A stretch of DNA of 64,000 bases from contig NZ_JBBOCJ010000001.1 in assembly GCF_038002345.1 (NCBI RefSeq), forward strand, positions 3,410,001-3,474,000. The letters are read 5' to 3'. Numbering within the stretch: the first letter of the stretch is position 1; each line of letters starts with the position of its first letter. This DNA comes from Paenibacillus sp. FSL M7-0420 (lineage in GTDB: Bacteria; Bacillota; Bacilli; Paenibacillales; Paenibacillaceae). Of this stretch, positions 331 through 41,303 are shown piece after piece. The notes beneath the pieces are model-generated. The model searched no databases and was not told where the DNA came from. It saw only the letters and a program-made list of their open reading frames with translations. The translations under genes and the position numbers were made by a program.

Positions 331-429
331 GTTCAGTGGGGCTACTTTCTCTTTCGGATTTTTGATAAGTGGCAAACTTTCTCTTTGAGTATGTTTGAGG
401 TTCAATCTAAGTAGCACTTTTAGCTCAAA

Positions 430-562
430 CAGCGGAGCGGGCGGAACGATTGTGGAAAAGCGGAGCGTTCGCCTTTGTGTCCGGATTTTCACCGATTAGG
501 TAAAAATAATAAAAATCTGGACACAACAGCGATTGTAACAACGTTCCGTTTGCGCAGCGTTC
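430..562 (+). repeat. structured palindromic intergenic element, copy 1
   Basis: This is a long imperfect palindrome. The inner arms TTGTGTCCGGATTTT (475-489) and AAAATCTGGACACAA (512-526) pair with one G:U. Outer arms CGGAACGATTGT (about 442-453) and ACAACGTTCCG (about 538-548) also pair. The apical region contains ACC-GATTA-GGT, a small hairpin. Related copies with different arm sequences but the same fold lie at 35639-35772 and 41095-41232. It lies about 175 bases upstream of the response-regulator gene, in the same orientation relative to that gene as the other two copies. No coding potential is evident. Confidence 0.8.
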
Positions 563-737
563 ATCCGAGCTAAGACGTACATCGTACTCTAAACCAAGGG
601 CCTTCCAAGTAACACCAACATGCTTTTCAGAACACAATATCTACCCATCTTTTCAGCCAATTTCACCCCAGGACACATAAAGGACATAACACTCGACTAT
701 GCTGAGAGGTATAAACGGGTTGAAAGCAGGGAGTACA

Positions 738-1418
738 TTGAACAAAAAGCTATTGCTTGTCGAAGACGAGCTGCGTATCCGTGAGCTGGTGTCGGATTAC
801 TTCATACAGGACGGCTGGGAGGTGCGCGAAGCCGATAATGGGCAGGACGCGCTCCTGTGGTTCGATTCGCTGATGCCGGATTTGCTGATTCTGGATATTA
901 TGATGCCCAAAATGGACGGATTTCAGGTATGCCGGGAGATCCGCAAGAAATCGGCGACCCCGATCATTCTGCTGACCGCCAAATCCGCTGATGACGACAA
1001 AATACACGGCTTCGAGCTGGGCGCCGATGATTATGTAACTAAGCCGTTCAGTCCAAAGGTGCTGGTGGCCCGGGCTGCCGCGCTGATGAAACGGGTCGAA
1101 GGCGCACACCAGCCAGAATCCGGTGTAGTGAGATTTGGCTCGGCCATTTTCAATACGATGGCGCACCGTCTAGAAGTGGAAGGCGCCGATGTCGAGCTTA
1201 CCCCGAAGGAGTATGATCTCCTGTGGCTGCTGATCCGCAACAAGGGCCATGTGGTCTCGCGGGATACCATCCTCAGCCGGGTGTGGGGAATTGAATTCGA
1301 GGGGGACTCCCGGGTCGTGGACAGCCACATCAAGAAACTGCGCAGCAAGCTGGGGTATGAATCCCGCCACATCCGCACGGTCATTGGAACCGGCTACAGA
1401 TTCGAGGACGAGGAATGA
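738..1418 (+). CDS. OmpR-family response regulator
   Basis: This is a cytoplasmic DNA-binding response regulator of 226 residues if started at TTG 738. An N-terminal receiver domain (about 1-120) carries the acidic pair in LLLVEDE, the phospho-acceptor Asp53 in LILDIMMPKMDG and the conserved Lys in DYVTKPF. A C-terminal winged-helix domain (about 130-225) ends with RTVIGTGYRFE, typical of OmpR/PhoB proteins. The TTG start is preferred because GCAGGGAG lies just before it and MNKKLLLVEDE is the usual family start; an in-frame ATG at 699 is possible but poorly placed relative to a ribosome site. The stop overlaps the kinase start by 4 bases, so the pair is translationally coupled. The target genes probably include the downstream lipid genes, by inference. 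Confidence 0.93.
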   Translation: MNKKLLLVEDELRIRELVSDYFIQDGWEVREADNGQDALLWFDSLMPDLLILDIMMPKMDGFQVCREIRKKSATPIILLTAKSADDDKIHGFELGADDYVTKPFSPKVLVARAAALMKRVEGAHQPESGVVRFGSAIFNTMAHRLEVEGADVELTPKEYDLLWLLIRNKGHVVSRDTILSRVWGIEFEGDSRVVDSHIKKLRSKLGYESRHIRTVIGTGYRFEDEE

Positions 1419-35600: not shown

Positions 35601-35638
35601 GTATTGTTCGGTTATTGTTTTTTACGAAAAGCAAAAAG

Positions 35639-35772
35639 AAGCGGAGGGGAAATTTGGAACTGGAGGAGCGAATGCGACCGCCTTTGTGTTTGGATTTCTA
35701 CCGCGAGAAGCGGTTATATTCAGGAAATCCAAACACAACAGCGGCCGGAAGTCCAAATGTTCACCGCAGCGA
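35639..35772 (+). repeat. structured palindromic intergenic element, copy 2
   Basis: The inner arms TTGTGTTTGGATTTC (35684-35698) and GAAATCCAAACACAA (35724-35738) are perfectly complementary. The apical CCGC-GAGAA-GCGG forms a small hairpin, and the outer arms AAATTTGGA and TCCAAAT pair, with further pairing outward (GCGGAGGGG with TTCACCGC). It shares GGAACTGGAGGAGCG and CAACAGCGGCCGGA with copy 3. It lies 126 bases before the response-regulator gene and fills most of the 396-base gap with the terminator of the SDR gene. Confidence 0.85.
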
Positions 35773-35897
35773 CGACCAAGCTTTAAGTTGTAATAATTCT
35801 TTATCTTTTCTTTAGATTTGGTTTAGACTGGATTAAGAATGGCAGGCTATAGTTACAAAGAGCGCGGCTTGCATGACAAGATAGAGGGGGATTCACC

Positions 35898-41037: not shown

Positions 41038-41094
41038 CGGAGTTAACACACGGATTATTATATAGATTGAACAAAAAAATTAAGTTAAAGGAAA

Positions 41095-41232
41095 AGTGGC
41101 GGAGGGGAATTTTGGAACTGGAGGAGCGGTAGCGTCCGCCTTTGTCTGCGGATTTCAACCGTTAAAAACGGGATGAATTAAGAAATCTGCAGACAACAGC
41201 GGCCGGAGGTCCAAAACTTCTCTGGAGTCACG
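41095..41232 (+). repeat. structured palindromic intergenic element, copy 3
   Basis: The inner arms TTGTCTGCGGATTTC (41142-41156) and GAAATCTGCAGACAA (41182-41196) pair with one G:U. The apical CCGT-TAAAA-ACGG forms a small hairpin, the outer arms TTTTGGA and TCCAAAA pair, and GTGGCGGAGGGGAA extends to TTCTCTGGAGTCAC. The arm sequence differs from copies 1 and 2 while pairing is kept. It lies 72 bases before the next gene. Confidence 0.85.
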
Positions 41233-41303
41233 GCTAATCCTAAAACCTGAAAATCAATAGTTCAATTTATTAGCTTAAATATTAACATTGTGGAGGATCA
41301 CCA

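Follow-up and report, generated by a model that had tools for sequence, protein, structure and literature searches.

A structured intergenic repeat family of Paenibacillales, probably an mRNA element partly spread by small transposons

Three palindromic elements in a 64,000-nucleotide stretch of the Paenibacillus sp. FSL M7-0420 genome (the window, i.e., the whole stretch of DNA analyzed) belong to a large intergenic repeat family with a conserved fold. The family is probably a structured mRNA element of the bcr/ERIC kind, specific to Paenibacillales and partly spread by small transposons. The core fold is about 150 nt long and is present in about 100 copies in each of the two genomes in which copies were counted, the FSL M7-0420 genome and G253 (another genus of the same family).

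The three elements were noticed in a preliminary description made from the letters of the window; their positions were confirmed and the coordinates given there are right within a few bases. All three fold well (z scores listed below), and 0 of 200 shuffles was as good in each case. As had been described, the inner arms of copies 1 to 3 (TTGTGTCCGG, TTGTGTTTGG and TTGTCTGCGG) differ between copies while the partner arms still pair by Watson-Crick or G·U pairs, and the apical hairpins are changed on both sides. The outer stem of copy 1 (430-562) is unrelated in sequence to those of copies 2 and 3 and pairing is retained. Copy 3 is part of a 212-bp unit (41059-41270) that extends beyond the element, and the ends of this unit are found again in other genomes. 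The terminal repeats of copy 2 are unrecognizable in this genome and present in the G051 ortholog, as found by ortholog comparison. Bit scores below refer to the covariance model R1, of which all three copies are part; they match it by construction because the model was built with them. The features are:

420..569, + strand: copy 1, type C; fold z -5.49, R1 99.8 bits (copy part of the model)
copy 1, outer stem: GCGGGCGGAACG-TTGT paired with ACAACGTTCCGTTTGC
475..489, + strand: copy 1, inner-stem 5' arm TTGTGTCCGGATTTT
491..501, + strand: copy 1, apical hairpin ACC-GATTA-GGT (from the fold)
512..526, + strand: copy 1, inner-stem 3' arm AAAATCTGGACACAA, then conserved CAGCG
699..1418, + strand: OmpR/PhoB-type response regulator downstream of copy 1 (PF00072 and PF00486)
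35629..35781, + strand: copy 2, type A; fold z -5.82, R1 178.4 bits (copy part of the model)
35684..35698, + strand: copy 2, inner-stem 5' arm TTGTGTTTGGATTTC
35700..35714, + strand: copy 2, apical hairpin ACCGC-GAGAA-GCGGT (from the fold)
35724..35738, + strand: copy 2, inner-stem 3' arm GAAATCCAAACACAA
35898..36605, + strand: OmpR/PhoB-type response regulator downstream of copy 2 (PF00072 and PF00486)
41059..41270, + strand: copy 3, type B, whole 212-bp unit; terminal inverted repeats TATATAGATTGAAC (left) and GTTCAATTTATTA (right)
41087..41239, + strand: copy 3, core fold; z -4.99, R1 162.2 bits (copy part of the model)
41142..41156, + strand: copy 3, inner-stem 5' arm TTGTCTGCGGATTTC
41159..41171, + strand: copy 3, apical hairpin CCGTT-AAA-AACGG (from the fold)
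41182..41196, + strand: copy 3, inner-stem 3' arm GAAATCTGCAGACAA
41304..41612, + strand: 102-aa open frame downstream of copy 3, without a family match

From the outside in, the fold consists of an outermost stem whose sequence is free, then an outer stem (e.g., GGAAATTTGGAAC with GTCCAAATGTTC), a junction carrying AGGAGCGNNAGCG, which is read as a small hairpin GC-GNNA-GC, and a CU/CA internal loop between CGC/GCG and UUGU/ACAA. Inside UUGU/ACAA come six variable pairs, AUUUC/GAAAU and the apical hairpin; the inner stem is 15 bp long and has a covarying middle. The internal loop and the junction are nearly invariant and non-palindromic. In several copies without terminal repeats the outermost stems differ in sequence yet pair: GTTTAGGTG with CACCTAAAC, GTGTAGGTGGC with GCCACTTACAC (G·U included), and GAGGTT with AACCTC. 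An insert of about 39 nt that reads as a hairpin is found at the internal loop; it is similar in seven full-length copies of the FSL M7-0420 genome and is also found in two purM orthologs. The insert loci (L086, L088, L091, L096, L097, L101 and L118 (2001-2193); L186 and L193) belong to different subfamilies and species, and in some carriers the 3' side changes to match, with GGGCAGCG in place of CAACAGCG.

A BLAST search with copy 2 against the FSL M7-0420 genome gave 103 candidates, of which 40 were scored. Model R1 was built from 32 copies of this genome: 30 BLAST loci (copy 2 included) and copies 1 and 3. A search of Paenibacillus genomes with a covariance model had been proposed in the preliminary description; when run, it revealed a large family. 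The FSL M7-0420 genome (7.67 Mb) contains 110 R1 matches at E values up to 0.1 (150 of 1910 candidates scored). Fifteen were dropped (13 opposite-strand shadows and 2 weak fragments), which leaves a family of 95 copies. With up to 30 candidates scored per genome, R1 matches were found in 61 of 61 genomes of the genus (FSL M7-0420 included) and in 14 of 39 others of the order. In a survey of 398 genomes drawn from the class, with 7 candidates scored per genome and stricter filters than in the genus and order survey, 38 genomes had matches and all 38 are in Paenibacillales. An exact core-pattern scan of named genomes found only Paenibacillus among the matches listed (80 of 80). G253 has 107 R1 matches and G058 has four copies with equal score. 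The element search gave no matches in phages, and in the plasmid search one Paenibacillus plasmid was found to carry an element match. A known RNA family was ruled out by three Rfam searches: 4227 models gave no match over the window, copy 2 gave three matches at E values up to 10, all far below the gathering score, and a search of 20 loci found a T-box and a PyrR site only, with the element unmatched. No description was found in the open-licence literature either, in agreement with the first impression that this family is undescribed.

The three copies alone are too few to establish selection on structure, which had been proposed from their compensatory changes. In 32 copies of the FSL M7-0420 genome, 97.6% of the cells are paired and 23 of 44 pairs are changed on both sides; 90 cells are changed on both sides compared to a shuffle mean of 21, and slid structures are 33 to 46% paired. 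Since the copies of a repeat are non-independent loci, one orthologous site was examined. In 17 of 29 genus loci the element precedes purM by about 25 to 55 nt; in one more it is cut by an N run, and in 11 it was not found there. Pairs were counted in 15 of the 17 orthologs (the two with the 39-nt insert were excluded) on a structure that was hand-written after the alignment had been viewed. In these 15 genomes 97.8% of the cells in 43 pairs form. Two-sided changes affect 16 of the 43 pairs and 47 cells, compared with averages of 6.9 and 12.4, respectively, in the shuffles, and no slid structure exceeds 50.6% paired. Further pair types were not unusually numerous, their count being reached by 62 of 500 shuffles. 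The outer pairs 11-146, 12-145, 31-126 and 38-119 covary separately, and single-side steps are present. Gene conversion between copies could move whole hairpins and inflate covariation. It was concluded that covariation stands out against shuffled and slid structures, and that selection on the structure is supported both by the 32 copies and by a true orthologous site in 15 genomes. At leuS the element is found in 5 of 25 genus genomes; a partial match some 1.4 kb from leuS, at the L232 edge, and 10 opposite-strand shadows are excluded from the leuS and purM counts.

Part of the family carries the marks of a MITE. Two kinds of terminal inverted repeats with TATATA ends lie about 30 nt outside the core. 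The A/B end sequences were recognized on both sides of 27 of the 95 copies, on one side of 22 and on neither side of 46, whereas control stretches further out gave 0, 5 and 90, respectively; terminal inverted repeats are a property of part of the family only. The unit is short and non-coding (212 bp with recurrent ends, and no called gene over the 95 copies), and the 212-bp type B unit recurs end to end, with sharp ends, in other genomes. The type B repeat pattern has 43 matches in the FSL M7-0420 genome vs. 3 for the reversed control. The type A pattern has 23 vs. 20 at up to three mismatches, and because this count barely exceeds the reversed control only matches with 0 to 2 mismatches are informative. 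Types A to D are assigned by string rules, D being the residual class, and the 95 copies divide into 22 A, 16 B, 18 C and 39 D. Six of the D copies have recognizable repeats on both sides and nine on one side; 7 of the 22 A copies have none. For this reason pairing is compared below by the repeats present and not by class D. Mosaic copies are also present. A unit with these repeats and a transposase was not seen in the FSL M7-0420 genome, where the terminal-repeat search found some single sites and, where matches pair, pairs that span known copies. Four of the type A sites that lie away from known copies were examined: two are remnants with the 3' part of the element and two are likely chance matches. 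No transposase was recognized by eye among the open frames at the two remnant sites. The TATATA ends are what suggests a TA target duplication.

The site of copy 2 varies among close relatives. In G051 the unit is complete, terminal repeats included; in G059 and G042 only the 3' half is present. The downstream gene is shared by G038, G049 and G039, without the element; these are not clean empty sites because the match ends there and the upstream sequence looks like another gene. This variation indicates that copy 2 is dispensable, and the turnover at the copy-2, purM and leuS sites indicates that the family persists although individual copies are gained and lost. Taken with the 27 copies that have two-sided repeats, the variable site of copy 2 indicates that part of the family is or was mobile.

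Two side observations concern other repeats and clustering. In L166 (about positions 900-1300; G051, the place orthologous to copy 2) units of about 48 nt (ACCGAACACAATTGGACTGGGTGCACCGC...), unlike the element, are repeated in tandem. The word AAATGTATGCG is also found in the flanks of the FSL M7-0420 copies at 2109391 and 6042877, and a similar GAATGTATGCG is found near the L166 array; these shared words may reflect a second repeat family. In G253, 22 of the 107 copies lie in 9 clusters. Arrays of two to three copies in the same orientation within 500 bp, some nearly identical, are seen on G253:C1 at 502215, 606344, 779167, 1499873, 3776945, 5026353, 5109840 and 5421624 and their neighbors.

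The preliminary description had set compensated structure against recent copies of a transposable element with random drift. That alternative is partly borne out, as 27 of the 95 copies keep two-sided repeats. Among copies other than type C, the fraction of paired cells is 97.7% with repeats on both sides (n = 27), 98.0% with repeats on one side (n = 19) and 97.7% with none (n = 31), while identity in unpaired columns falls from 72% (both sides) to 62% (none). In the 31 repeat-less copies identity is 80% in paired columns, and drift alone is insufficient because these copies are 97.7% paired despite 62% identity in unpaired columns. Type C fits the fold less well (91.7% of cells paired, and 21 A·C cells, the most of any type).

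The element is intergenic and mostly in sense orientation relative to the downstream gene. None of the 95 copies overlaps a called gene, the gene calls behind these counts being crude. Tandem contexts comprise 52 sense and 12 antisense copies; 20 copies lie between convergent and 7 between divergent genes, and 4 are unclear. The sense to antisense ratios by label are 13:4 (A), 11:0 (B), 6:1 (C) and 22:7 (D), and 18 of 23 repeat-less copies other than type C in tandem contexts are in sense orientation. In G253 the context was determined for 57 of 107 copies, a non-random set (best-scoring copies, array neighbors and others picked), with 42 sense and 3 antisense tandem copies, one overlap with a called gene among the 57, and a median distance of 59 nt to the next start. 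In 43 tandem sense cases of the FSL M7-0420 genome, those with both genes near, a terminator-like site was found before the element in 11, after it in 1 (type C) and not at all in 31. In 40 such cases of G253 it was found before the element in 6 and after it in 3. Downstream genes include leuS, purM, purC, pheT, argG, prfB, a topoisomerase subunit and pyrR (names assigned by eye, except leuS and purM), and no common theme was found among the neighboring genes; a gene-specific leader was ruled out for lack of such a theme. In the Rfam search of 20 loci, the pheT copy was found to have a T-box some 1.2 kb upstream, and the copy ahead of pyrR a PyrR site some 100 nt downstream; both are on the strand of the element, and these stretches therefore look transcribed.

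An intrinsic terminator on the sense strand was also rejected: the mean T fraction at the 3' foot (20 nt) is 0.17 to 0.36 by type. The 5' foot is A-rich in types A and B (mean A fraction 0.62 and 0.53), which gives their antisense strand the look of a terminator and may account for some of the sense bias of A and B copies, and for less of that of the others. Type C copies lie between convergent genes in 10 of 18 cases. Several are followed by a separate terminator; for example, those at 1389248, 2991966, 6993810 and 3880842 (G000:C1) have a strong intrinsic-terminator-like hairpin within about 35 to 80 nt of the element, on its downstream side. Type C may be a 3'-UTR or stand-alone RNA form.

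Whether the fold acts as RNA or as a cruciform had been left open in the preliminary description, and the excess of G·U over A·C pairs favors RNA. Read from the opposite strand, a G·U pair becomes an A·C pair, and a DNA palindrome is therefore expected to contain the two equally often. With pairs set by geometry, independent of the model, the inner stem has 117 G·U vs. 32 A·C pooled over 139 distinct arm pairs; pair 9 alone contributes much, and without it the excess is modest, at 69 vs. 30 (p 1e-4). By set, the ratios are 46:9 in the FSL M7-0420 genome, 61:18 in a set drawn from 80 named loci and 20 others, 11:5 in the purM orthologs and 21:1 in G253; without pair 9 the small sets are non-significant alone (orthologs 7:4, G253 6:1). 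Counted once per position and type, the ratio is 15 to 11. At one pair, 58 of the 94 distinct copies have G·U. The rows used were 79 of 98, 21 of 33 and 105 of 119, the remainder being without anchor strings (insert, shadow and divergent rows), and 52 of 57 from G253. The excess is support and not proof, because related sequences are non-independent. It is improbable that the element is a DNA palindrome, i.e., a cruciform or single-stranded hairpin used by chromosome proteins or in replication, with arms kept by template switching. The long inverted repeats fit this view, and template switching can turn quasi-palindromes perfect, but neither a symmetric palindrome nor its correction predicts more G·U than A·C on the sense strand. 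The pair that is G·U in most distinct copies and the nearly invariant, non-palindromic internal loop and junction also speak against it. Strand also follows the chromosome halves (36+/12- and 9+/38- in the FSL M7-0420 genome; 42+/15- and 4+/46- in G253), and of the 27 copies in convergent or divergent contexts, 20 run with presumed replication (origin assumed near coordinate 0). Most of this bias can follow gene orientation, however, because 140 of 186 neighboring genes are co-directional as well; the bias of the element resembles that of genes, and the two can be separated in part only. More improbable still is a riboswitch-like leader with ligand-binding or attenuating control of the next gene. 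The short median distance to the downstream start and the clusters of two to three copies in G253 fit such a leader, as do the nearly invariant unpaired positions, but the neighboring genes have no common theme, a terminator-like site rarely follows the element (1 of 43 cases here and 3 of 40 in G253), and antisense and 3' copies exist. About 100 copies per genome is also far above the usual riboswitch numbers.

The main rival, which we consider unlikely but far less so than these two, is a purely selfish MITE, whose fold would be kept for movement (as single-stranded DNA, cruciform or RNA) with no gain to the host. The two-sided and one-sided repeats in excess of the controls, the 212-bp type B unit with ends that are sharp and recur, the copy-2 site with its complete, half-deleted and absent copies, the mosaic copies and the four equal-scoring copies in G058 are all in its favor. 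Against it are the 46 copies without recognizable repeats, 31 of which (all non-type-C) remain as well paired as the others and some of which have an unrelated outermost stem sequence. The orthologs upstream of purM are retained with compensated changes, the sense bias is strong in both the FSL M7-0420 genome and G253, and no unit with repeats and a transposase was seen in the FSL M7-0420 genome. The mRNA-element reading has its own difficulties: the lack of a shared gene theme, the high turnover, the antisense copies (12 of 64), covariation that gene conversion could inflate, a G·U excess that is modest without pair 9, the poorer fit and mostly convergent setting of type C, and, in G253, the three terminator-like sites after the element and the one overlap with a called gene.

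Under the mRNA-element reading, the element would be transcribed within mRNA leaders and operon spacers, and the RNA fold would be the target of selection. Subfamilies A and B presumably spread as small non-autonomous transposons with terminal inverted repeats, and many copies may then have lost the repeats and kept the fold. The long interrupted duplex could be recognized by a double-strand-specific ribonuclease or an RNA-binding protein, after which the two sides of the transcript would decay separately. That the element acts as such a processing or stability site is the most tentative part of this reading, possible though rather doubtful; such a role would suit a long duplex that lies in operon spacers and has a fixed internal loop, and similar repeats occur in B. 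cereus mRNA and are said to be regulatory in Yersinia (PMC3446304, PMC2267715). A broader version, doubtful too and a little more so, is a Paenibacillales-wide RNA module that has its own binding protein or nuclease, would place about 100 unrelated mRNAs per genome in one post-transcriptional network, and would itself be spread by short transposons. If true, regulatory or processing sites arise from a mobile repeat and are afterwards maintained by selection, e.g., in the pur operon. Structured intergenic repeats of bacteria are easily dismissed as small-transposon debris. Here the same fold can be traced from repeat-bearing copies to repeat-less, compensated copies beside an essential gene in part of the genus, so that a common soil genus allows a direct test of the old question of whether such repeats become functional RNA. 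For Paenibacillus riograndensis SBR5, whole-transcriptome and 5'-end data sets exist, in which motifs were annotated with Rfam (PMC5670726). With the covariance model, up to about 100 unlabeled features per genome would be annotated, and the nearly invariant loops offer a handle for finding a protein that reads the element.

Among known systems, the bcr repeats (bcr1-bcr18) of the Bacillus cereus group are described as high-copy and intergenic, bcr1-3 as MITE-like, and bcr10 and bcr18 as having a conserved secondary structure (PMC3446304). In strain ATCC 10987, 84 of 165 bcr copies are reported to be part of mRNA, in UTRs or operon spacers, and only bcr3, and not bcr1, correlated with decay rate in B. 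cereus (PMC3446304); Bcr1 is listed elsewhere with a predicted conserved structure (PMC2267715). Both bcr and the element are intergenic and high-copy, but the lineages differ; they were compared by description. The element core occurs both with and without terminal repeats, and its changes at an orthologous site are compensated. The hosts of ERIC belong to another phylum than those of the element. ERIC (or IRU) repeats of Enterobacteria, 127 bp in the literature column, are intergenic with a palindromic fold and are said to regulate neighboring genes in Yersinia via RNA hairpins (PMC2267715). ERIC is described as one long stem-loop (PMC2267715), whereas the element contains a junction and an internal loop that hardly varies, and an extra hairpin is optional. 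ERIC, too, was compared by its description. The Correia or NEMIS units of Neisseria are short, bounded by terminal inverted repeats and TA-rich at their ends; they are included in transcripts, where RNase III cleaves them. About half of the element copies, in contrast, have no recognizable repeats yet keep the fold, and the lineages differ. REP and BIME are, like the element, high-copy extragenic palindromes; REPs are given as 20-40 bp (PMC3733652) and the element is longer, at about 150 nt.
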